From contig JAUXBW010000005.1 of NCBI GenBank assembly GCA_030619185.1, forward strand, positions 1 to 16,593: 16,593 bases of DNA. The letters are read 5' to 3'. The position numbers and the translations under genes are program-made. The DNA comes from Methyloprofundus sp. (GTDB taxonomy: Bacteria > Pseudomonadota > Gammaproteobacteria > Methylococcales > Methylomonadaceae). The notes beneath the pieces were generated by a model, which saw nothing but the letters and a program-made list of their open reading frames with translations, was not told the DNA's origin and did no database searches. How positions within the stretch are numbered: position 1 is the first letter of the stretch; each line of letters opens with the position of its first letter. Shown in pieces: positions 1,082-11,357 of the stretch.

Positions 1082-1267
1082 GTATTCTTCTTGGTGGTTA
1101 AAAAGAGAAAAACATACCTAGCTTAGCAGTGGCTCATGAGTTAAAATTACACAGTTTGATTGTGATAAGAATAAAAGGGCTAGTCTTGCTAAGGGAATAA
1201 ATGCAGATCACAACGATTTTGGCGCATTCAACCAGTTTATTATTAATTTAGAGGAGGCTTCTCCGTG

Positions 1268-2428
1268 ATGAAAACAAAGCAATTATTCGCAGGTCTGACC
1301 CTGATGGCTACTGGCCTAGGGACAGCGCAGGCGGACTATACTCTTAACTTAATGGAGGGCGTAACATCGATTAGTCGTGATGTTTACGGTTTGCATATGT
1401 TGGTGTTGTGGGTCTGTGTATTCATAGGTATCGCAGTGTTCGGTACCATGTTTTACTCGATCTACTATCATCGCAAATCGAGAGGGTATAAAGCATCAAA
1501 TTTCCATGAAAGCACTAAAGTGGAAATTATCTGGACAATCATCCCCACTGTTATTTTGATTTTATTGGCGATTCCTGCCACTAAGGTTATGTTGGAAATG
1601 GATGATCTTAAAGATTCTGAGATGTCCATTAAAGTCACGGGGTGGCAGTGGAAGTGGGAATATGAATATCTGGATAATGGCATTCACTTTTTCAGTAGTT
1701 TAGATGAAGCGAGCAACAAAGCACGACAAGTCGGCTCAGGTATTGATCCGCGTACTGTGCCAAATTATCTATTAGAGGTTGATAAGCCTTTAGTGGTTCC
1801 AGTCAATACTAAAATTCGCTTCCTTTTTACAGCGGCAGATGTGATCCACTCCTGGTGGGTGCCTGACTTAGGCTGGAAAAAAGATACGATTCCTGGCTAT
1901 ATCAATGAAGCATGGACGAGTGTTGAAAAAGCGGGAACTTACCGTGGTCAATGTACTGAATTATGTGGTAAAGATCATGGCTTTATGCCGATTGTGGTCA
2001 TTGCCATGGAAAAGCCTGATTATGAAGCATGGGTTGCCGAGCAAAAAGGTATTGCCGTTGCAAATGCCGCCGCTGCTGATAAAGAATGGTCTCAGGAAGA
2101 TTTGATTAACAAAGGTGAAAGCGTATACGCAAATAACTGTGCCTCATGTCATATGGCAGATGGTGCGGGTTTGGCGGGTACTTTCCCTGCTGTTACCGGA
2201 AGCTCCGTAGTAACTGGTGATATTAATGCGCAAGTAGAATTAATGCTAAATGGCAAAGGTATGATGCCAGCGTTCGGGCAAATGCTAGACCCTGTTGATT
2301 TTGCAGCAGTCTCTACGTTTATCCGTAATGGTTTGGGTAATTCAGTAGGTGATTCAATTCAGCCTGCAGCGATTAAAACATTACAAGCAGCGATTCCAGC
2401 CGTCGAATATGACGACGATGATGAATAA
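1268..2428 (+). CDS. coxB: Cytochrome c oxidase subunit II with fused cytochrome c domain
   Basis: Accepts electrons from cytochrome c at the periplasmic face and passes them to subunit I. From the ATG at 1268 (386 aa), a signal-like hydrophobic N-terminus ends near AQA (about 20-22), followed by two membrane helices (about 43-65 and 87-108). The CuA domain carries H194, C229, E231, C233, H237 and M240 in the pattern C-x-E-x-C-x3-H-x2-M. A C-terminal class I cytochrome c domain has CASCH (291-295) and a likely Met ligand at 332/333, as in caa3-like or proteobacterial COX2-cyt c fusions. The protein ends in an acidic DDDDE tail. GAGGAGG at 1251-1257 could also serve the GTG at 1265, giving one extra residue. 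It starts the coxB-coxA-cox11-coxC operon. Confidence 0.95.
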   Translation: MKTKQLFAGLTLMATGLGTAQADYTLNLMEGVTSISRDVYGLHMLVLWVCVFIGIAVFGTMFYSIYYHRKSRGYKASNFHESTKVEIIWTIIPTVILILLAIPATKVMLEMDDLKDSEMSIKVTGWQWKWEYEYLDNGIHFFSSLDEASNKARQVGSGIDPRTVPNYLLEVDKPLVVPVNTKIRFLFTAADVIHSWWVPDLGWKKDTIPGYINEAWTSVEKAGTYRGQCTELCGKDHGFMPIVVIAMEKPDYEAWVAEQKGIAVANAAAADKEWSQEDLINKGESVYANNCASCHMADGAGLAGTFPAVTGSSVVTGDINAQVELMLNGKGMMPAFGQMLDPVDFAAVSTFIRNGLGNSVGDSIQPAAIKTLQAAIPAVEYDDDDE

Positions 2429-2490
2429 TCTATGATGATTATCACTATTGAATCGAATTCTTTATTTAGTATTTTTAAGAGGTATTAATT

Positions 2491-4104
2491 ATGTCTGCTG
2501 TCGTAGCTGAACATGAACATGATGATCATCATGATCACGGACCTGAAAAAGGTTTTTTAAGGTGGATAATTACCACTAACCATAAAGATATTGGTACGCT
2601 ATATCTATTCTTTGCACTGGCAATGTTTTTTGTTGGTGGCACAATGGCATTGATTATTCGTGCTGAATTATTTGAACCCGGCATGCAGTTTGTCAGTCCG
2701 CAGTTTTTTAACTCGATGACGACGATGCATGCGTTAGTGATGGTATTTGGTGCCGTAATGCCAGCTTTCGTGGGTTTTGCCAACTGGCAAATTCCTATGA
2801 TGATTGGTGCGCCTGATATGGCATTACCAAGAATGAACAATATGAGTTTCTGGATGTTGGTTGCCGGAATTTTATTGTTGGCCAGTACTTTATTTATGGA
2901 AGGCGGAGCACCCGCATCTGGCTGGACTTTGTATCCACCCTTAGTCTTGCAAACAGGTGCTGCACTACCCTTTGCAATCTTTGCGGTGCATATGCTGGGA
3001 ATCTCATCGATTATGGGAGCGATTAACATTATCGCGACTATTTTTAATATGCGTGCGCCGAAAATGACATTAATGAAAATGCCATTGTTCGTCTGGACCT
3101 GGTTAATCACTGCTTTCTTATTGATTGCGATTATGCCAGTTTTCGCAGGTGCGGTAACCATGCTATTGACTGACCGTTTCTTTGATACCAGCTTTTTCGA
3201 TGCAGCGGGTGGTGGTGATCCTGTGCTTTATCAGCATATATTCTGGTTTTTCGGACACCCAGAAGTGTACGTCATGATTCTGCCTACTTTTGGTGTCGCT
3301 TCGACAATTATTCCGGTATTTGCGCGTAAACCTTTATTTGGTTACAGCTCGATGGTTTATGCAACAGCAGCGATTGCCTTCCTGTCTTTTATCGTTTGGG
3401 CGCACCATATGTTTACCGTGGGGATGCCGATGGCAGGGGAGTTATACTTTATGTATGCCACCATGCTTATTGCGATTCCGACCGGGGTGAAGATTTTCAA
3501 CTGGACAGCAACCATGTGGCAAGGGTCCATGACTTTTGAAGCTCCGATGCTGTTTTCAATAGCCTTTGTTGTGTTATTTACCTTAGGGGGCTTTACTGGC
3601 TTGATGATGGCACTGGCACCCGTTGATTTTCAGTATCACGATACCTATTTTATTGTCGCTCACTTTCATTACACATTAGTCCCTGCATCCATTTTTATCA
3701 TTATGGCAGGTGCTTATTTCTGGTTACCTAAATGGACTGGAAATATGTACAATGAAAGGTTGGCTAGATTCCATTTCTGGTTATCTGCTATTTCAGTGAA
3801 CATATTATTTTTTCCACAACACTTCTTAGGTTTGGCAGGTATGCCACGTCGTATTCCTGATTATGCAGTGCAGTTTGCTGACTGGAATATGGTGTCTAGT
3901 GTCGGTGCATTTATCTTTGGCTTTAGTCAGTTGTTATTCCTTTATATTGTTATTCAAACAATCAGAGGTGGTACAGGTGAAAAAGTAACAGATGAAGTCT
4001 GGGAAGATGCACATAAACATGGCTTGGAGTGGACATTGCCTTCTCCAGTGCCATACCATACTTTTGCGACTCCACCAGAAAAGATTCCAACAGAGCATTT
4101 CTAA
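2491..4104 (+). CDS. coxA: Cytochrome c oxidase subunit I (A1-type, aa3)
   Basis: Catalytic subunit that reduces O2 to water at the heme a3-CuB centre and pumps protons across the inner membrane. The 537 residues form about 12 hydrophobic helices. Visible residues are heme a ligands H80 and H393, heme a3 ligand H391, CuB ligands H256, H305 and H306, and Y260 in HPEVY for the His-Tyr cross-link. E258 in the same motif and D109 in [12 protein letters not shown] mark a D-channel, and K334 in PTGVKIFNW a K-channel, so this is an A1-type enzyme. The N-terminus (residues 8-16, HEHDDHHDH) is unusually histidine-rich. AAGAGG at 2477-2482 lies 8 bases before the ATG. The coxB-coxA gap is 62 bp. Confidence 0.97.
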
Positions 4105-4163
4105 GGAGTTATGTTGGCTTTGTCGGCATCGCTTATAAAGTGCTGGCAAAGCGAACTGAAATA

Positions 4164-4259
4164 ATGAATACTAAGACAAAAAATATATTGACTGCAGTTG
4201 CCCTCGCGGTAGTTGCATTTTCAATTTATGTTTTTGCTGTTATAAGAGTTACTTCTTAG
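4164..4259 (+). CDS. Small membrane peptide preceding Cox11 (candidate oxidase small assembly protein)
   Basis: A 31-codon ORF encoding a lysine-containing N-terminus (MNTKTKN) followed by one hydrophobic helix (about residues 8-27) and a short polar end. Tiny single-helix proteins in exactly this position, between coxA and cox11, are known in many Beta- and Gammaproteobacteria and are often called cytochrome oxidase small assembly proteins; that assignment is by position and shape, not by a conserved motif. Its stop TAG (4257-4259) shares one base with the GTG start of cox11, which supports real, coupled translation. A GTG at 4140 in the same frame is an alternative start. No strong ribosome binding site precedes the ATG. 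Confidence 0.65.
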   Translation: MNTKTKNILTAVALAVVAFSIYVFAVIRVTS

Positions 4260-4786
4260 TGGCATCAGATTTAGAACAGAAGAATAAAAAAACAGTACGC
4301 GCTTTGCTTCTTTTAGTGCTCGTGATGTTTTTATTTGCAGTTGCCCTGATACCTTTGTACGATATTCTGTGCGAGATAACAGGGATTAATGGCAAGACCA
4401 GGCAAGAATCTTCGATTTTAAATTATACGATTGATACACAGCGAGAAATAACAATAGAATTTATCACTTCAATAGGAGCGGGGACAGGCTTAGAATTTAA
4501 AGCCGATAAGTACCAGTTAAAAGCGCATCCTGGTGAAGTTATAAAAATGACTTATACAGTAAGGAATAAAACAAATAAGCGTATGTTTGCCAAGGCAAAC
4601 CCTAGTGTGACACCGGGGCCTGCAGTGGGGTACGTTAAAAATACCAAGTGTTTTTGTTTTGCTACACAGGTTTTTGAAGTAGGGGAGACTAGGCACCTTG
4701 AGGTGCAAATAGTCGTTGATCCAGCCTTACCTGCACACTACAAAAGATTGACATTTGGACTTACATTTTATGATACTACTAAATAA
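4259..4786 (+). CDS. ctaG: Cytochrome c oxidase assembly protein Cox11/CtaG
   Basis: Membrane-anchored copper chaperone that helps deliver copper to the CuB site of subunit I from the periplasmic side. The 175 residues contain one N-terminal membrane helix (about 14-35), the conserved cysteine just after it in YDILCEITG (C38), and the copper-binding CFCF motif (C131, C133). The C-terminal beta-domain ends with DPALP (154-158) and LTFGLTFYD, typical of the family. The start is GTG at 4259, overlapping by one base the TAG of the upstream 31-codon ORF, so translation is probably coupled. It sits between coxA and coxC, the usual proteobacterial position. Confidence 0.95.
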   Translation: MASDLEQKNKKTVRALLLLVLVMFLFAVALIPLYDILCEITGINGKTRQESSILNYTIDTQREITIEFITSIGAGTGLEFKADKYQLKAHPGEVIKMTYTVRNKTNKRMFAKANPSVTPGPAVGYVKNTKCFCFATQVFEVGETRHLEVQIVVDPALPAHYKRLTFGLTFYDTTK

Positions 4787-4800
4787 ATTAGGGGATAATG

Positions 4801-5664
4801 ATGTCTACAGGCGCATATTACATTCCACATAAGGCAACCTGGCCCATAGCGGCAACGGCAGGTATGATGCTGACGTTAGCAGGCTTTGCAAATTACCTGA
4901 ATGGTAATGCTGCAGGGTCAACTTTTATGATACTGGGTCTGGTCATCTTTATCGTGATGCTGGCAGGCTGGTTTACCATGCAGGCTAATGAAAGTGAAAC
5001 CGGCATGTATAACCATTATGTAGGAATTTCCTACCGTATGGGGATGATGTGGTTTATCTTTTCTGAAATCATGTTTTTCGCAGTATTCTTCGGTACGCTT
5101 TGGTATACACGTAACTTATCAATGGACTGGCTGGCAGGAATAGGCGATGGCCCTGGGCGATCTACTGCGATGCTATGGCCTTCATTTGAATCTCTATGGC
5201 CAACAAATGGACCGGGTGAAATCGGTGGTGAATATGAGCCTATGGGGGCTTTCGGTTTGCCATTGTTAAATACCTTAATTCTATTGAGCAGTGGTGTCAC
5301 TCTTACCTGGGCACATCATGGCTTGCTTGCTAAAAATCGCTCTCAGCTTATTAAAGGCCTGGCGGTGACAGTCGGTTTAGGGTTTTTATTTGTTGCTTTT
5401 CAGGCAATCGAATATCAAGAAGCCTATCATGACATGGGCTTAACCTTAGGCTCCGGTATCTACGGCTCTACATTCTTTATGCTAACAGGCTTTCACGGTG
5501 CACACGTATGTATCGGTGCGATTATGTTGTCAGTTGTTTTATTTCGTAGCTCAAAAGGCCATTTTACACCCGAAAATCATTTCGTTTTTGAAGCAGCTGC
5601 CTGGTATTGGCATTTTGTTGATGTCGTATGGTTAGGCTTGTTTATCTTCGTTTATTTGCTGTAA
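4801..5664 (+). CDS. coxC: Cytochrome c oxidase subunit III
   Basis: Integral membrane subunit that stabilises subunit I and keeps its proton uptake path active. The protein (287 aa from the second ATG) has about seven hydrophobic helices. Family landmarks are SEIMFFAVFFGTLW, TLTWAHHGL, GSTFFMLTGFHGAHV and the C-terminal AAAWYWHFVDVVWLGLF block. The first ATG at 4798 is only 3 bases after AGGGG (4790-4794), whereas the ATG at 4801 is 6 bases after it, so I chose 4801. It is the last gene of the structural cox operon and is followed by a strong terminator. Confidence 0.95.
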   Translation: MSTGAYYIPHKATWPIAATAGMMLTLAGFANYLNGNAAGSTFMILGLVIFIVMLAGWFTMQANESETGMYNHYVGISYRMGMMWFIFSEIMFFAVFFGTLWYTRNLSMDWLAGIGDGPGRSTAMLWPSFESLWPTNGPGEIGGEYEPMGAFGLPLLNTLILLSSGVTLTWAHHGLLAKNRSQLIKGLAVTVGLGFLFVAFQAIEYQEAYHDMGLTLGSGIYGSTFFMLTGFHGAHVCIGAIMLSVVLFRSSKGHFTPENHFVFEAAAWYWHFVDVVWLGLFIFVYLL

Positions 5665-5813: not shown

Positions 5814-6065
5814 TTAATTACCCTGTTGTTCAGCCATCTTTTCTTTTTGTAACTGCATCTGCATACCTATTCCTGTAGGCTGTATAAGCCCAGTCATCAA
5901 AGCAATGGATAATAAAATAAACAAGGCTAGGGAAATACTAATACGATAAGTCAGTGCTTTAACGGTTTTTGTTGATGATTCTTTATGTTTTATCAGATGA
6001 AATAGAGCGCTACCAAGGCTGGCAATAATAGTTAAAAAAACAAGAATAATAAGAATTTTTAGCAT
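5814..6065 (-). CDS. DUF2909-like twin-helix membrane protein
   Basis: An 83-residue protein with two hydrophobic helices (about 3-24 and 41-62) separated by a short lysine-rich loop (IKHKESSTKTVK) and ending in a charged glutamine-rich tail. Small proteins of this shape (DUF2909 / twin transmembrane protein) are known on the opposite strand between coxC and SURF1 in many Gammaproteobacteria, which matches the position here. The function is unknown; a role in oxidase assembly is inferred only from conserved location. Its ribosome binding site is weak. It converges on the coxC terminator. Confidence 0.8.
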   Translation of the reverse strand: MLKILIILVFLTIIASLGSALFHLIKHKESSTKTVKALTYRISISLALFILLSIALMTGLIQPTGIGMQMQLQKEKMAEQQGN

Positions 6066-6438: not shown

Positions 6439-7164
6439 ATGTGCCGGTGTCGAGTAAAAATTTTACCGCTAATTATGTTTGTTTGCCTTTTGGCTTTATT
6501 GCTACGCCTGGGGTTTTGGCAATTAAGCCGAGCAGAAGAAAAGCAGGCGTTTCTTGCTAATCAACAAGAAAATATGCTTGGGCAGGCACTTCCAATCGGT
6601 AAATTATTAGCAGATAATAAACAGTTAAGATTTAGCAAGGCAATATTAGAAGGGCATTATGATGTCCAGCATCAAATACTAATGGATAATCAGATCCATG
6701 CCGGAAAAGTAGGTTACTTTGTATTAACGCCTTTTATACTGGAAGCGGATCAAAAAGTCGTTTTGGTTAATCGTGGCTGGGTGTTGATGAATAAAGACAG
6801 ACATCAATTGCCAGATGTTGATTTTATGCCACCTGCAGGAAAGCTGACTATCGTAGGTGTGATCAACCATTTTCCGGAAGTAGGTCTGGTACTGGAAGGT
6901 GCTGATGAGCCCGGACAAGGTTGGCCATCGGTAGTGCAAATTATAAATAGTCAAAAAATCACAAAAAAACTACAGCAACCCATCTTAGGTTTTCAACTGC
7001 AATTGGCCGCTGAACAACCGTATGGCTATGTCAGGGAGTGGCAAGTGCATACGCGGATACCGCCTGAAAAACATAGAGCCTATGCATTTCAATGGTTCGC
7101 GCTAGCCGCGACCTTAACTTTATTAATCCTTTGGATAAGTTGTAAAACACAGAAACATGACTGA
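6439..7164 (+). CDS. SURF1 family cytochrome oxidase assembly protein
   Basis: SURF1 proteins bind heme A and help insert it into subunit I of aa3-type oxidases in the inner membrane. This 241-residue protein has the family architecture: an N-terminal helix (about 9-26) followed by LGFWQLSRAEEK (24-35), a periplasmic domain with MDNQIHAGKVGYFVLTPF (82-99) and VLVNRGWV (108-115), and a C-terminal helix (about 216-235) preceded by KHRAYAFQWF with the conserved H212. The ATG at 6439 has no clear ribosome binding site; an ATG at 6475 would remove the first 12 residues without losing the helix. Its end overlaps the next gene by 8 bases, which indicates an assembly operon. Confidence 0.93.
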   Translation: MCRCRVKILPLIMFVCLLALLLRLGFWQLSRAEEKQAFLANQQENMLGQALPIGKLLADNKQLRFSKAILEGHYDVQHQILMDNQIHAGKVGYFVLTPFILEADQKVVLVNRGWVLMNKDRHQLPDVDFMPPAGKLTIVGVINHFPEVGLVLEGADEPGQGWPSVVQIINSQKITKKLQQPILGFQLQLAAEQPYGYVREWQVHTRIPPEKHRAYAFQWFALAATLTLLILWISCKTQKHD

Positions 7165-7753
7165 GCAAATAAAGAAAAACCATCGCACGATTATTATTTT
7201 AGCCTTGATGACGATTATTCCTTTTTCGTATGCATGGTATTTGACGACTGAACCGGATTTTCGCCCTGGAGCAACCAATAAAGGTGAATTGATTATTCCT
7301 GTTATCACAACCGAGCGAGTTGAATTAGCGGGAATTGATCAATTTTCAATTAATAATATTGATGAACTAAAGGGGCATTGGCTGATGCTGAATATCATCC
7401 CCACTGAACAATGTAATAAGGTGTGTGCTGATGCCATTCATGCGACCAAACAATTGCGTTTAATGCTGAATAAAGATTTAACGCGCACGCGGCGTGCCGT
7501 TATCATTATGCAAGGTAAACAGGAATCCAGTTTTCAGCCCTGGTGGGATGCCGATGATCGTTTAATAAAAGTTAAGCCATCAGTCGCTTTGGCAGATAAA
7601 ATTAAAAAGCAATTGGGCGGCAACATAGCAGAAGGCGTATTAATTCTTATGGATCCACTGGGCAATCTGATGATGCAATACCCATCCGGGTTTGATCCCT
7701 ACGCGGTAAAAAGTGATTTGAAAAAATTGCTTAGAATTTCTCAAATCGGGTAA
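7157..7753 (+). CDS. Oxidase-cluster thioredoxin/Sco-like membrane protein with CxxxC
   Basis: A 198-residue protein of the type found between SURF1 and ctaA in gammaproteobacterial cox clusters and usually annotated as hypothetical. One N-terminal helix (about 11-29) anchors a periplasmic domain. The domain resembles the thioredoxin fold of Sco proteins: a strand HWLMLNI (74-80), then C86-x3-C90 at the start of a helix, and late in the chain LILMDPLGNLMMQYP (162-176) followed by a terminal helix. The CxxxC spacing equals that of Sco copper chaperones, but the third copper ligand (the histidine of the DH motif) is not evident. A copper or disulfide role in oxidase assembly is inferred from fold-like pattern and neighbours. 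It overlaps SURF1 by 8 bases and ends 6 bases before the next gene. Confidence 0.8.
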   Translation: MTEQIKKNHRTIIILALMTIIPFSYAWYLTTEPDFRPGATNKGELIIPVITTERVELAGIDQFSINNIDELKGHWLMLNIIPTEQCNKVCADAIHATKQLRLMLNKDLTRTRRAVIIMQGKQESSFQPWWDADDRLIKVKPSVALADKIKKQLGGNIAEGVLILMDPLGNLMMQYPSGFDPYAVKSDLKKLLRISQIG

Positions 7754-7759
7754 GTCGGC

Positions 7760-9694
7760 ATGTTTAGATTATTTGCATTTTTTGTTTGTTTTTTTACCTT
7801 AGTCTTAACTGCATCAGGTACTTATCAGCGCGTCACGCAAGTTAACTCTCTGACCTGTACTGAGGTTTCCAGCTGTTTTACGCAAATGACTGAGCTAATG
7901 AGTCAGGCAGAGATGAGTAGTCATGATGTCATAGGGCTGATTCATTATATGAGTACTTTTGGCGTGCTGTTATTTCTTGTGGCCATGTTAATTGCCAGTG
8001 TCTGGTTAACAGCTGCACGGTTAAAATTAGTTATTTTCACTCTAGTCCTGGCCGCATTAGCGGGCTTGCAAATTCAACTTGGGATGTATCCTGATTTACT
8101 ACCCAGTCAGGCAGTCAGTCACTTAGTACATTATCTATTAAGTGCACTTATCTTGTTTATTGGCTACGCCACCTTCTTGCGTAGCCAGTCTGGCTATGTC
8201 AAGCAAGCTAATAATGGCAAACAATACCTGCTACTGACAGCAATGAGTTTGTTATTACTACAGGTGGCACTCGGAGCCTGGCTTGCTGCAAATAAAGGTG
8301 CACTGGTCTGTGGCGGATTTCCTCAGTGTTTGAATTCCTGGTGGCCACAGGCTGGCTATCAATATGCACTGGATCTTTTTGCTCCATTGTCATTTAGTGC
8401 AAAAGTTGCGTTACATTGGCTGCACCGCCTTTTGTCGGTTATTGTGTTTGTCTGTCTGACCTGGCTTATGCTATCAGCGACTAAAAACAGGGTTAAGCAA
8501 ATACGCTGGGCTGGTATGGCAATTAGTATTTTATTGCTGGTCCAGTTTGCAGCAGGAATTGGCATAGTCAAGCTGGGTATGCCAGCCTGGTTAGTTGTAC
8601 TGCATAGCTTAAATGCGGTTGTTTTAATGTTGCCATTACTGGCGCTTAGATTTTACACGCGCTATCAGCTTTTAGACGAGCAGGAAAAACCCACGCAGGC
8701 AGTAGACCGGGATGAGTCAAAGCCAGAGCCTGAAATCGAAATACCCGTTGCTGAACGGGTCGAGCCTGAGTCCTTATATTTACGCTTAAGATCCCAACTC
8801 GGGAAAACACGCTCAGGTCTGGGCGCGGCTTTATCTGTGGTCACTTTGACTAATAGAAAAATTGACCAGGATTTACTGGAAGAAATCGAAACCAGTCTGT
8901 TAATGGCCGATGTAGGGATGGATGTTACCACCGATATTATTGCGAAACTGGAAGACAGTGTTGAAAAACACCAGTTGCAAGATGTTAATGCCTTATCCAC
9001 ATTATTAAAGCAGCAATTGCTGGAATTATTGGAGCCTGTTAGCCAGCCCTTAGTGATTCCTGAAAAACAAGGTCCCTATGTTATTCTGGTCGTGGGCGTT
9101 AATGGCGTGGGTAAAACCACAACCATTGGTAAGTTAGCGCAAAGATTGCAACAGCAAGGCCATAGTGTCATGCTGGCAGCGGGGGATACGTTTAGAGCGG
9201 CGGCTGTAGAGCAATTACAAATCTGGGGTGAACGTAATAATATTCATGTGGTGGCGCAGCACACGGGTGCTGATTCAGCATCGGTTATTTTTGATGGGGT
9301 ACAATCGGCTCAGGCTAAAGGGGTAGATGTGTTGATTGCAGATACCGCAGGGCGTTTGCATACTAAATCAAACCTGATGGAAGAACTCAAGAAAATCAAA
9401 CGCATTACTGCGAAAGTGGATGAGTCTGCACCGCATGAGGTGCTGTTGGTTCTGGATGCAGGAACAGGTCAGAATGCACTATCTCAGGCTGAACATTTTA
9501 ATAAAGCAGTTGAGCTAACCGGTATTGCGCTGACTAAGTTAGACGGCACAGCAAAAGGTGGAATGATTTTTGCGCTAGCCAGGCAAATAGGTGTGCCTAT
9601 TCGTTTTCTGGGTGTGGGTGAGGGTATTAATGATTTACAAGATTTTAATGCCGAGCATTTTATAGATGCATTATTTGCAGTGGATGAGCGTTAA
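7760..9694 (+). CDS. ctaA-ftsY: Heme A synthase - SRP receptor fusion (CtaA-FtsY)
   Basis: One 644-codon frame with two complete parts. Residues 1-300 are a CtaA/Cox15-type heme A synthase: eight hydrophobic helices, paired cysteines C33/C39 and C184/C190 (VCGGFPQC, then WWP), and the four expected heme-site histidines H62, H124, H222 and H282. Residues 301-337 form an acidic linker (rich in D, E and P) resembling the FtsY A domain. Residues 338-644 are the FtsY NG domain: amphipathic LYLRLRSQLGKTRSGLG, then GVNGVGKTTTIGKLA (446-460), DTFRAAAVEQ, DTAGR (528-532), TKLDGTAKGG (592-601) and GVGEGINDL (618-626). An even helix count would leave the GTPase in the cytoplasm, where it must act. The CtaA part is divergent (see findings). 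SURF1 and the Sco-like gene precede it, and ftsE follows after 5 bases. Confidence 0.93.
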   Translation: MFRLFAFFVCFFTLVLTASGTYQRVTQVNSLTCTEVSSCFTQMTELMSQAEMSSHDVIGLIHYMSTFGVLLFLVAMLIASVWLTAARLKLVIFTLVLAALAGLQIQLGMYPDLLPSQAVSHLVHYLLSALILFIGYATFLRSQSGYVKQANNGKQYLLLTAMSLLLLQVALGAWLAANKGALVCGGFPQCLNSWWPQAGYQYALDLFAPLSFSAKVALHWLHRLLSVIVFVCLTWLMLSATKNRVKQIRWAGMAISILLLVQFAAGIGIVKLGMPAWLVVLHSLNAVVLMLPLLALRFYTRYQLLDEQEKPTQAVDRDESKPEPEIEIPVAERVEPESLYLRLRSQLGKTRSGLGAALSVVTLTNRKIDQDLLEEIETSLLMADVGMDVTTDIIAKLEDSVEKHQLQDVNALSTLLKQQLLELLEPVSQPLVIPEKQGPYVILVVGVNGVGKTTTIGKLAQRLQQQGHSVMLAAGDTFRAAAVEQLQIWGERNNIHVVAQHTGADSASVIFDGVQSAQAKGVDVLIADTAGRLHTKSNLMEELKKIKRITAKVDESAPHEVLLVLDAGTGQNALSQAEHFNKAVELTGIALTKLDGTAKGGMIFALARQIGVPIRFLGVGEGINDLQDFNAEHFIDALFAVDER

Positions 9695-9699
9695 AGGCT

Positions 9700-10362
9700 A
9701 TGTTGACTGCAAATCATGTCTGTAAACGTTATGCTGAGGCCGGCGATGCTTTGAGTGATGTTAACTTTCATCTGGAGAAGGGTGAAATGGCATTTTTAAC
9801 CGGGCACTCGGGGGCTGGCAAAAGTACCTTGCTGAAACTGATTGCTGCAATTGAGCGTTGTTCGCGCGGACAATTGCTGGTCGATGGGCAGGACTTAAGC
9901 CGCTTGCCCGATAGGCAAATTCCTTATTTACGGCGCAAATTAGGGCTGATTTTTCAAGACTATAAATTATTGCTTGATAAAACCGTATTTGATAATGTTG
10001 CTTTGCCCATGGTCGTGGCTGGAGTAGGTCCGCATGAGATAGCTCGGCGCGTACGTGCGGCATTAGATAAAGTCGGTTTGCTGGATAAAGAGAAAAGGTA
10101 TCCGCTGGCTTTGTCAGGGGGGGAGCAGCAGCGCATTGGCATCGCCCGCGCAGTGGTAAATAAACCCGCGCTGATTTTAGCGGATGAGCCCACTGGAAAT
10201 CTTGATCCTGAATTATCGGCAGAAATTATGTATTTATTTGAGCAATTTAAGCAAGTGGGTGTGACCGTCTTAATCGCAACACATGATATTGCCCTGGTTA
10301 ATCAATTAAATCATAGAGTGCTGCAATTAGATCATGGCCGACTGCTAGAGCCGCGCTTATGA
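9700..10362 (+). CDS. ftsE: Cell division ATP-binding protein FtsE
   Basis: ATPase of the FtsEX complex, which works at the division septum and relays ATP hydrolysis through FtsX to periplasmic cell-wall hydrolase activators. The 220-residue ABC domain is complete: Walker A GHSGAGKST (35-43), Q-loop Q86, signature LSGGEQQR (138-145), Walker B ALILADEPTG (157-166) and switch histidine H195 in THD. The cysteine-bearing IFQDYKLL segment and the ALPM block are typical of FtsE rather than generic LolD-type ATPases. The ATG lies 5 bases after the ftsY stop and the gene overlaps ftsX by four bases (ATGA), so ftsY-ftsE-ftsX are translated together as in many Gammaproteobacteria. Confidence 0.96.
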   Translation: MLTANHVCKRYAEAGDALSDVNFHLEKGEMAFLTGHSGAGKSTLLKLIAAIERCSRGQLLVDGQDLSRLPDRQIPYLRRKLGLIFQDYKLLLDKTVFDNVALPMVVAGVGPHEIARRVRAALDKVGLLDKEKRYPLALSGGEQQRIGIARAVVNKPALILADEPTGNLDPELSAEIMYLFEQFKQVGVTVLIATHDIALVNQLNHRVLQLDHGRLLEPRL

Positions 10363-11357
10363 AAGCAGTGAGAAACACCAGAGTACCGAACCCTCGAACT
10401 AGCAAAGAAGCGCAAATAATAAAACGTGGGCCAGAGAGCCAGGTGCTAACAAGTCTGCAATTAAACCGGGAATCACTTATTTCCAGTTTAGTGCGCTTAT
10501 TACAATGCCCTTTTTCATCAGCGATGGCAATCATCGTGATGGCGATATCTATTGCCCTGGCAGGCAGTTTTTATGTGCTAGTGAACAATGCTCAGCAACT
10601 ACTTGACTCAATGCAGGTAGGTAAGCAAATATCCCTGTTTTTGCATGAGAAAACGAGTGATCAGCAGGCGGCTAAGTTAGCCAGGAAATTACAGGGGAAT
10701 AAGTCGATAGAAAAAGTGAATGTTATATCCAGACAACAGGCACTGGCAGAATTTCAGCAATACAGTGGTTTTGGTGCGGCTCTGGATGCGCTGGAAAGCA
10801 ACCCACTACCGATTGTTATACAGGTAAACCCGAAAGAATCTCTGACAGAGGCGGCGCAATTAAAAGATCTGTTAGGGCAGATGCAGCACGAGCAGGCGGT
10901 TGATTTTGCGCAAATGGATATGCAGTGGCTTGCGCGTTTACAGGCGATGATGAAAATGGCAAACCGAGTTGTGATTATTTTGGCTGCTCTACTTGCGATT
11001 GGCGTGTTGTTTATTATTGGCAATACCATACGCTCTGAATTACAGACGCGCCGCGAGGAAGTTATCGTGACTAAGTTGGTTGGCGGTACCAATATGTTTA
11101 TTTGTCTGCCCTTTTTATATACTGGTTTTTGGTATGGTTTTATTTCGGGGATGTTGGCATGGGTGGTTATCAGCTTGATTTTATTTATGATTAACGCACC
11201 GATAGAACAATTATCTCTATTGTATCAAAGCCAGTTTACATTACAGTTTATGAGTTTTAGTGAATCTATTTTGCTGTTACTGGCTTCATCCACTCTTGGG
11301 ATACTGGGGGCATATGCAGTTGCAAGCCATCAATTACGTTTATTAAAACCCGAATAG
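10359..11357 (+). CDS. ftsX: Cell division membrane protein FtsX
   Basis: Membrane partner of FtsE. The 332 residues show a long basic cytoplasmic N-terminus (about 1-50), a first helix (about 53-75), a large periplasmic loop (about 80-200), and three further helices (about 203-225, 252-278 and 302-323), the normal FtsX topology. RSELQTRREEVIVTKLVGG (225-243) after helix 2 is the conserved cytoplasmic coupling segment of the family. The start overlaps the ftsE stop as ATGA, which ties its translation to ftsE. It is the last gene of the run that begins with SURF1. No obvious T-rich hairpin follows before hfq. Confidence 0.95.
   Translation: MKAVRNTRVPNPRTSKEAQIIKRGPESQVLTSLQLNRESLISSLVRLLQCPFSSAMAIIVMAISIALAGSFYVLVNNAQQLLDSMQVGKQISLFLHEKTSDQQAAKLARKLQGNKSIEKVNVISRQQALAEFQQYSGFGAALDALESNPLPIVIQVNPKESLTEAAQLKDLLGQMQHEQAVDFAQMDMQWLARLQAMMKMANRVVIILAALLAIGVLFIIGNTIRSELQTRREEVIVTKLVGGTNMFICLPFLYTGFWYGFISGMLAWVVISLILFMINAPIEQLSLLYQSQFTLQFMSFSESILLLLASSTLGILGAYAVASHQLRLLKPE

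Follow-up and report, generated by a model that had tools for sequence, protein, structure and literature searches.

A heme A synthase-like membrane domain fused to the only FtsY found in methanotrophs of the order Methylococcales

The ctaA::ftsY locus

The window, that is, the whole stretch of 16,593 nucleotides analyzed here, is an entire contig of a draft genome of Methyloprofundus sp. (G000; 1.72 Mb in 208 contigs, 66% complete). It carries genes of an aa3 oxidase operon, then a single long frame in which a protein of the heme A synthase family CtaA/Cox15 continues into the SRP receptor FtsY, and then ftsE and ftsX, which are the usual partners of ftsY. The features are as follows.

1265..5664 (+), coxB, coxA, ctaG and coxC of the aa3 oxidase operon (coxB and ctaG by Pfam, coxA and coxC from their translations)
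6439..7753 (+), surf1 and the gene of a 198-aa protein, directly upstream of the fusion
7760..9694 (+), ctaA::ftsY fusion gene, one ATG-started open frame of 644 aa (coordinates inclusive of the stop codon)
7760..8665 (+), CtaA-derived eight-helix membrane domain, residues 1-302, with predicted transmembrane helices at about residues 2-25, 54-80, 87-109, 117-141, 156-177, 212-241, 246-271 and 276-301
7934..7936 (+), Gly59, at the position of the catalytic Glu57 of Bacillus subtilis CtaA, lost here
7943..7945 (+), His62, equivalent of H60
8129-8131 (+), His124, equivalent of H123
8309..8329 (+), Cys184 and Cys190, the two cysteines of ECL3 (C191/C197), retained in 69/70 fusions
8423..8425 (+), His222, heme-b ligand position (H216 equivalent), 70/70 fusions
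8603..8605 (+), His282, heme-b ligand position (H278 equivalent), 70/70 fusions
8666..8779 (+), acidic linker of 38 residues (303-340), disordered at 306-336 in the AlphaFold2 model, without ATG, GTG or TTG
8780..9691 (+), FtsY NG GTPase, residues 341-644
9700..11357 (+), ftsE and ftsX (ABC_tran and FtsX domains by Pfam, and gene order)

A gene for a small twin-helix protein lies on the opposite strand within the cox operon (5814-6065, -), in a position like that seen in many of the loci compared. The 198-aa protein (7157-7753) gives a weak match, below cut-off, to NF058629, the PA0111/PP_0108 redox-active disulfide family, and its relatives are found directly before ctaA in fused and unfused genomes alike.

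Domains and predicted topology

An earlier note on this DNA had taken the frame 7760-9694 for a true fusion, and the same architecture in relatives bears this out. In the 644-aa protein, Pfam finds COX15-CtaA at residues 41-291 (85.4 bits, cut-off 29.9), SRP54_N at 364-420 and the SRP54 GTPase at 439-639, and the NCBIfam FtsY model TIGR00064 is matched at 365.8 bits, above its cut-off of 260.7. A fold search with the whole model returned FtsY and other SRP GTPases among the matches listed, and the membrane part was therefore modelled alone; in a PDB profile search, the best 60 of 78 matches were solely FtsY/SRP. A stand-alone CtaA relative used as sequence query led to the structures 8aw5 and 6a2j. 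The fused domain belongs to CtaA/Cox15 by sequence family and by fold. It departs from this family at the catalytic E57, replaced by Gly59; H60 and H123 are present as His62 and His124, H216 and H278 as His222 and His282, and all four histidines and both cysteine pairs are thus retained in the window.

Both AlphaFold2 and hydropathy predict eight transmembrane helices, in agreement with the polytopic anchor, even helix number and cytoplasmic GTPase proposed earlier. These predicted helices precede the NG domain in one polypeptide, across a linker without stop or start, as would be expected of an integral-membrane SRP receptor. Hydropathy gave eight helices in 65 of 70 fusions, seven in G024, G033 and G147, six in G030 and three in G012, in which a contig end cuts the frame. 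In G030 (L060), the fused domain is shortened to about six helices; the helix 2-3 region is gone, and the parity and the heme-b histidine pair are retained.

A codon scan confirmed that the last ATG ahead of the FtsY part is codon 290 (8627). The earlier note had given GTG codon 360 (8837) as the next start of any kind; the linker, scanned for ATG, GTG and TTG, is indeed free of them, but a TTG at codon 291 (8630), within helix 8, had been missed. The linkers of the 70 fusions have a median length of 40 residues (27-60) and are net acidic in 67. ATG is absent from 63 of them and present in seven; 51 contain some ATG, GTG or TTG and 19 lack all three, and in 12 a Shine-Dalgarno-like 4-mer precedes a start. 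Moreover, six of 50 fusions (G046, G051, G054, G057, G058 and G060) have no ATG across the 90 codons preceding NG. Initiation in the linker is thus no general solution for producing a free FtsY.

Distribution of the fusion

Among 60 related genomes, the fusion was found in 49, including G012 with its truncated frame, and separate FtsY and CtaA in seven (families f7 and f8). The remaining four are undecidable: the FtsY frame of G002 ends at a contig edge, and G003, G016 and G021 gave no FtsY-like match, weaker SRP-GTPase matches only. A protein search added 65 further fused clusters (69 matches in all, the window's own among them), with Methyloprofundus, Methylobacter, Methylococcaceae and Bathymodiolus methanotrophic symbionts as source names. 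A scan of named genomes yielded at least 80 loci, and 11 of those listed are fused: Ca. Methylobacter oryzae, Crenothrix polyspora, Methyloglobulus, three Methylomonas, Methylococcaceae CSMAG_547, Methylococcales Bin06_002, Methylococcus UBA6136, an Iophon sponge symbiont and a Methylothermaceae MAG. The other 69 listed align from residue 285 onward only, and the four of these frames that were read are all unfused, that of a Methylococcales MAG (L192) included. Relatives sharing the fusion, a search for which the earlier note had suggested, were thus found; the assignment to the order Methylococcales comes from the named records.

A class-wide scan covered 276 genomes, three of them from Methylococcales (G000, G027 and G039). 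Among the matches listed, only these three had matches from within the CtaA part; all others align no earlier than query residue 295, in frames of 317-526 aa except for G449 and G290. No further fusion in the class emerged from these matches. No match at 1e-60 was obtained in 25 of the 276 genomes, and rare fusions outside the order are therefore possible.

Gene order around ctaA and ftsY

In families f7 and f8, M16 points leftward, ftsY, ftsE, ftsX and rpoH point rightward, and ctaB and ctaA follow further on, leftward. In family f6, cox genes, ctaA::ftsY, ftsE, ftsX and, further on, rpoH point rightward, ctaB leftward and M16 rightward. The unfused f7 genome G053 has two M16 genes leftward, ftsY, ftsE, ftsX and rpoH rightward and an aspartyl protease gene, then ctaB, ctaA, the 198-aa gene, surf1 and cox leftward. 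The f8 genome G043 resembles it, but its rpoH and ctaB are separated by one COX1-like and one helicase-like gene. The f6 genome G041 has cox, surf1, the 198-aa gene, ctaA::ftsY, ftsE, ftsX, pmoC and rpoH rightward, followed by ctaB leftward and M16 rightward. One inversion of the ftsY-to-ctaB piece, with breakpoints between ctaA and ctaB and on the 5' side of ftsY, interconverts the two orders, and ftsE and ftsX are carried along by it. A tree of 76 NG domains, made by a quick method and with long branches (G046 above all), puts the 70 fusions on one side of a single branch and the six unfused proteins on the other, with a support of 96. From gene order and tree, it appears likely that the fusion arose once, through an inversion placing the 5' end of ftsY behind ctaA. 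Examples from f1 and f4 (G027 and G054) have ctaB far from the fusion. The lone pmoC/amoC gene of G041 (L084:12714-13550; PF04896, 386 bits) lies between ftsX and rpoH.

The oxidase genes do not always accompany the fusion. In the f4 loci of G039, G051, G054, G057 and G060, and in G025, coxA, coxB and coxC were sought beside the fusion and none was found; coxA is elsewhere in the genome. In G044, a lone coxB-like frame of 245 aa (L054:8740-9477) stands between bioD and the fusion, with a like place in G050 (L056), and its CuA motif looks degenerate by eye. A search of the fusion loci of G044 and G050 yielded none of coxA, ctaG, coxC, surf1 or the 198-aa gene, and no close coxA was found anywhere in the G044 genome; both fusions still have C191, C197, H216 and H278. 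In G170 (g38, L095; 1.7 Mb, 99% complete), whose fusion has all nine CtaA sites, no coxA was found at E 1e-50 and a coxC piece lies at a contig end; the absence of coxA may be an assembly gap.

FtsY and its SRP partners

Exactly one TIGR00064 match above cut-off was found in each of 41 genomes. In the 35 genomes outside f7 and f8, G000 included, it lies within frames of 565-864 aa. A second, stand-alone ftsY would have spoken against the earlier interpretation; searched with TIGR00064, the 41 genomes contain none, a result that is weaker for G000 (66% complete) than for its 34 fusion-bearing relatives, for which a completeness of at least 95% was requested. G000 has Ffh (562.9 bits, cut-off 473.2) and the SRP RNA (RF00169, on C206), and SRP RNA was found in 20 of 21 genomes, G038 being the one without. 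Nearly all organisms have FtsY, and model bacteria cannot live without it. The protein is an FtsY by its NG GTPase, above the curated cut-off, and by the SRP partners, Ffh and SRP RNA, in the same genome; where an A domain with lipid-binding helices would be expected, it has the CtaA domain and the 38-residue acidic linker. Such an A domain is usual in proteobacteria (PMC2780400); it does not define FtsY as such. FtsY tied to a membrane domain has been reported to be functional in E. coli (cited in PMC2780400). In the unfused relatives G053 and G043, FtsY begins with MFGFGKKK-.

Decay and retention in the CtaA-derived domain

Passages of PMC12808453 describe E57 as strictly conserved in CtaA alignments and proposed to be catalytic, H60 and H123 mutants as inactive yet heme-binding, and H216 and H278 as heme ligands on helices VI and VIII. 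Heme B is located in the C bundle of CtaA (PMC7327177), and the cysteines of ECL1, unlike those of ECL3, are important for heme A synthesis in B. subtilis (PMC8239418).

The stand-alone CtaA of f7 and f8 keep all nine sites in 7/7 cases. In the first 50 fusions (G000 and relatives, gaps scored as losses), the N-terminal half retains C35 in 43, C42 in 42, E57 in 9, H60 in 36 and H123 in 35, and the C-terminal half C191 in 49, C197 in 49, H216 in 50 and H278 in 50. The corresponding values for 70 fusions are 63, 62, 24, 53 and 55 in the N half, and 69, 69, 70 and 70 in the C half. The 20 added fusions, three chosen for being without a second CtaA and 17 from higher-scoring PF02628 matches, lean to intact ones, and the counts are not independent since the sequences share ancestry.

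E57 is absent from 46 of the 70 fusions (three of these are gaps), lost to G, S, Q, W, A, H, N, L, V, D, K or R, and H60 and H123 are replaced repeatedly (by Y, Q, R, S, D and other residues). With G012 left out, 47 of 69 fusions have a broken E57-H60-H123 triad (42 of 49 in the unpicked set) and 22 of 69 a whole one. All 47 triad-broken fusions keep both heme-b histidines, and 46 of them C191/C197; in G024, both cysteine pairs are gone and the heme-b histidines are kept. Among 142 columns invariant in seven stand-alone relatives, H216 and H278 rank first and E57 114th. Over 66 clusters, the membrane part has no invariant residues other than G172, W174, C184, F187, C190, H222, T241 and H282, all in the C half. 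The ECL3 cysteines are better kept than those of ECL1 (69 and 69 versus 63 and 62 of 70); as the ECL3 pair is dispensable in B. subtilis, the best-kept parts of the domain are the heme-b site and a cysteine pair unneeded for heme A synthesis.

With gaps and the truncated G012 taken as lost, the state of E57 requires at least 13 changes on the NG tree. In all 12 decayed pairs that gave both values (16 decayed pairs tried), dN/dS of the N half exceeds that of the C half, as it does in one of four intact pairs; the pairs were picked for closeness, share genomes and include several with dS above 1. All dN/dS values obtained are below 1 in both halves. Taken together, these patterns suggest that the catalytic half has probably decayed many times over and that the C-terminal four-helix half has been retained. 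Two observations temper the reading of single residues. Natural CtaA groups exist with E57N and with E57K plus H123N (a section of PMC8239418), so that the loss of E57 alone is no proof of lost activity. In addition, H3 (H216) is Phe in 55% of archaeal type 1A* proteins (a passage of PMC12808453), and hence it need not bind heme everywhere.

Stand-alone CtaA copies

G000 possesses a separate CtaA of the H60N type (C131:3182-4069, L034), located between an acyltransferase/AMP-ligase-like and a ygfZ-like gene (names from translations). PF02628 is matched elsewhere in 48 of the 50 first-read fusion genomes (only partially in G013 and G017), and G040 and G050 gave no such match besides the fusion. 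All 30 stand-alone CtaA examined, 29 from fusion genomes and one from G021, have C35, C42, E57, H123, H216 and H278, Asn in place of H60, and no second cysteine pair. Asn naturally replaces H60 in 34% of type 1C (PMC12808453), and by residues these copies would fit, in these features, type 1.3 as given in a section of PMC8239418.

The fusion is the sole CtaA found in G040, G155, G170 and G188 (at least 90% completeness, two lineages); all nine sites are intact in these four, where it is likely a true double enzyme. Among the other genomes outside f7 and f8 with one PF02628 match, this match is a stand-alone CtaA in G002, G003, G016 and G021, whose fusion is either cut or was not detected. G024 also has a single match, its fused domain itself scoring too low, and that of G212 is outside the matches listed. 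No second CtaA was found beside the broken fusion of G050 (85% complete), which counts against the rule that the fusion is intact when alone; because its genus mate G044 has one, we read this absence as an assembly gap. A second PF02628 match also accompanies 18 of the 22 intact fusions (some not among the matches listed). Decay was probably permitted once a second, stand-alone CtaA was present. In G001, three short PF02628 pieces in different frames (G001:C14:95250-95643) are perhaps a decayed third CtaA copy.

Discussion

We consider it likely that the fusion acts, as one polypeptide, as the sole SRP receptor of the cell, and that its CtaA-derived eight-helix domain is a permanent, heme-b-holding membrane anchor of the NG GTPase. 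This domain would hold the NG part at the inner membrane via the short acidic linker, where FtsY usually has helices that bind lipid reversibly, and SRP (Ffh and SRP RNA) with its ribosome would dock on a fixed receptor. The anchor role is deduced from the topology and from the finding of no other FtsY, and permanent anchoring in cells is what we infer from it. One inversion would have put the 5' end of ftsY behind ctaA, giving an early fusion that was probably a double enzyme, both heme A synthase and SRP receptor. In the presence of a second, stand-alone CtaA, the catalytic half of the fused domain would then decay repeatedly, in G000 too, and its heme A synthase activity would be lost; the C-terminal four-helix half would keep its bis-histidine heme-b site and periplasmic cysteine pair. 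Residue pattern and fold suggest that this half binds heme b, and the fused domain most likely now works as a heme-b-holding membrane anchor. Some points could go against this explanation: H216 and H278 could be kept for packing, catalysis is possibly retained in the 18 triad-intact fusions having a further PF02628 match, and an internal start in the fusion or its proteolysis is possible.

One could wonder whether the fused domain is here a working heme A synthase, which would tie the provision of heme A to oxidase subunit insertion. The window's fusion stands in the cox operon behind coxA and surf1, heme O synthase is present, and the four histidines and both cysteine pairs are retained; elsewhere the triad is whole in 22 of 69 fusions, four genomes have no other CtaA found, and the E57N and E57K groups in the same section of PMC8239418 show that CtaA proteins do exist with this residue changed. 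However, the strictly conserved E57 (PMC12808453, in part) is Gly59 here and many residues elsewhere, G000 has a stand-alone CtaA of a kind with E57, H123, H216 and H278 in 30/30, and in G025 and five f4 loci the fusion has no coxA, coxB or coxC that could be found next to it, all of which makes this reading unlikely. The link between heme A supply and CoxA insertion suggested in the earlier note accordingly lacks support for G000, given Gly59, the separate CtaA on C131 and the decay of the N half. It is possible in relatives with an intact fusion, above all in the four genomes where the fusion is the sole CtaA, and possible even in G000, as natural CtaA groups without E57 occur (PMC8239418, in part). 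At the opposite extreme, the domain could be a heme-free anchor whose histidines and cysteines are kept solely for folding of the helix bundle. The eight helices predicted in 65 of 70 fusions and the loss of both cysteine pairs in G024 agree with this, but the pseudo-symmetric pair H60/H123 of the N half was lost repeatedly and H216/H278 never in 70 fusions, and G024 kept its heme-b histidines despite the loss of its cysteines; we regard a heme-free anchor as quite improbable.

Another possibility is that proteolysis or an internal start in helix 8 releases a free FtsY, the fusion being merely a means of co-expression. Helix 8 does hold starts here (ATG 8627, TTG 8630), an ATG occurs near this region in many of the 50 fusions scanned, the linker is disordered in the AlphaFold2 model, and a Shine-Dalgarno-like 4-mer precedes a start in 12 of 70 linkers. 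Yet 63 of 70 linkers are free of ATG and 19 of all starts, six of 50 fusions have no ATG in the 90 codons before NG, and two separate genes would be simpler were free FtsY needed, so that such a split seems very unlikely. Finally, an artefact of assembly or sequencing at the junction might be suspected, the window being a short whole contig from a 208-contig, 66% complete draft. The same architecture recurs in 49 of 60 relatives, including the one- or two-contig assemblies G027, G039, G046, G054 and G055, and in the named isolates Methylomonas koyamae R-45383 and Ca. Methylobacter oryzae KRF1; fused frames in relatives and named genomes rule this artefact out, and its probability is next to nil. 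Beyond the role of a heme-b-holding anchor, which we prefer, the heme could act as a structural pin or as an input; in the latter case the heme-b half might be a sensor, its heme loading or its redox state (with Cys184/Cys190) setting the activity or stability of the attached FtsY; we put this forward only tentatively and hold it to be rather doubtful.

Several known systems can be compared with the fusion. Like bacterial FtsY (TIGR00064; E. coli structures 2yhs and 5niy), it has a complete NG GTPase, is the only FtsY found, goes with Ffh and SRP RNA and has ftsE-ftsX adjacent; unlike it, it has an eight-helix enzyme domain where the A domain and lipid-binding N-terminal helix would be. It shares with CtaA/Cox15 having two cysteine pairs (type 1.1 or class B in a section of PMC8239418; structure 6a2j) the fold, the place in the cox operon, the cysteine pairs and the heme-b histidines, but it has lost Glu57 here, gained a C-terminal GTPase and been parted from ctaB by the inversion. 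FtsY proteins with a hydrophobic sequence of their own are likewise held in the membrane by it, through either a genuine transmembrane helix or a single extended lipid-binding helix, whereas the anchor of the fusion is polytopic, enzyme-derived and probably heme-bearing. When FtsY NG was joined in the laboratory to an unrelated membrane polypeptide (Zelazny et al. 1997, as cited in PMC2780400), the transmembrane-tethered FtsY was functional in vivo; those fusions are artificial, and CtaA-FtsY is natural and widespread in an order. In the eukaryotic SRP receptor, too, the SRP-docking GTPase is permanently tethered, alpha by the membrane subunit beta (PMC2780400, in part), but the tether is a separate GTPase subunit.

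We know of no relation between SRP receptor beta and CtaA. "Fused signal recognition particle receptor" is, we take it, a generic database name for FtsY that says nothing about CtaA. CtaA fusions with heme O synthase have been described (parts of PMC8239418, PMC12808453 and PMC9145763), and, as one of its passages states, a CtaA survey of 2026 left fusion proteins out of its alignments (PMC12808453); FtsY is absent from its text. Among the papers listed in searches of the open-access literature, none described a CtaA-FtsY fusion. FtsY with a transmembrane helix and CtaA fused to heme O synthase are thus known; an SRP receptor carried by CtaA appeared in none of these papers.

The extent of FtsY movement on and off the membrane has long been debated. 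In most sampled members of this order of methanotrophs, the receptor seems to be polytopic and permanently anchored, which offers a natural test of how far FtsY must leave the membrane. The locus also provides a traceable case of gene fusion by inversion, in which an enzyme has become a membrane part and has retained its heme site. Methanotrophs are rich in membrane-bound methane monooxygenase. If heme matters, their membrane-protein traffic would have a heme input, and, should the sensor reading be true, membrane-protein insertion in methanotrophs would answer to heme, oxygen or redox supply through a heme-regulated SRP receptor, a control of co-translational targeting that is undescribed in the literature we found.

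In other families of the class, the FtsY matches G449:C31:17235-18143 and G290:C40:14671-15597 lie in open frames of 944 and 993 aa, respectively, which are possibly other FtsY extensions or chance open frames.
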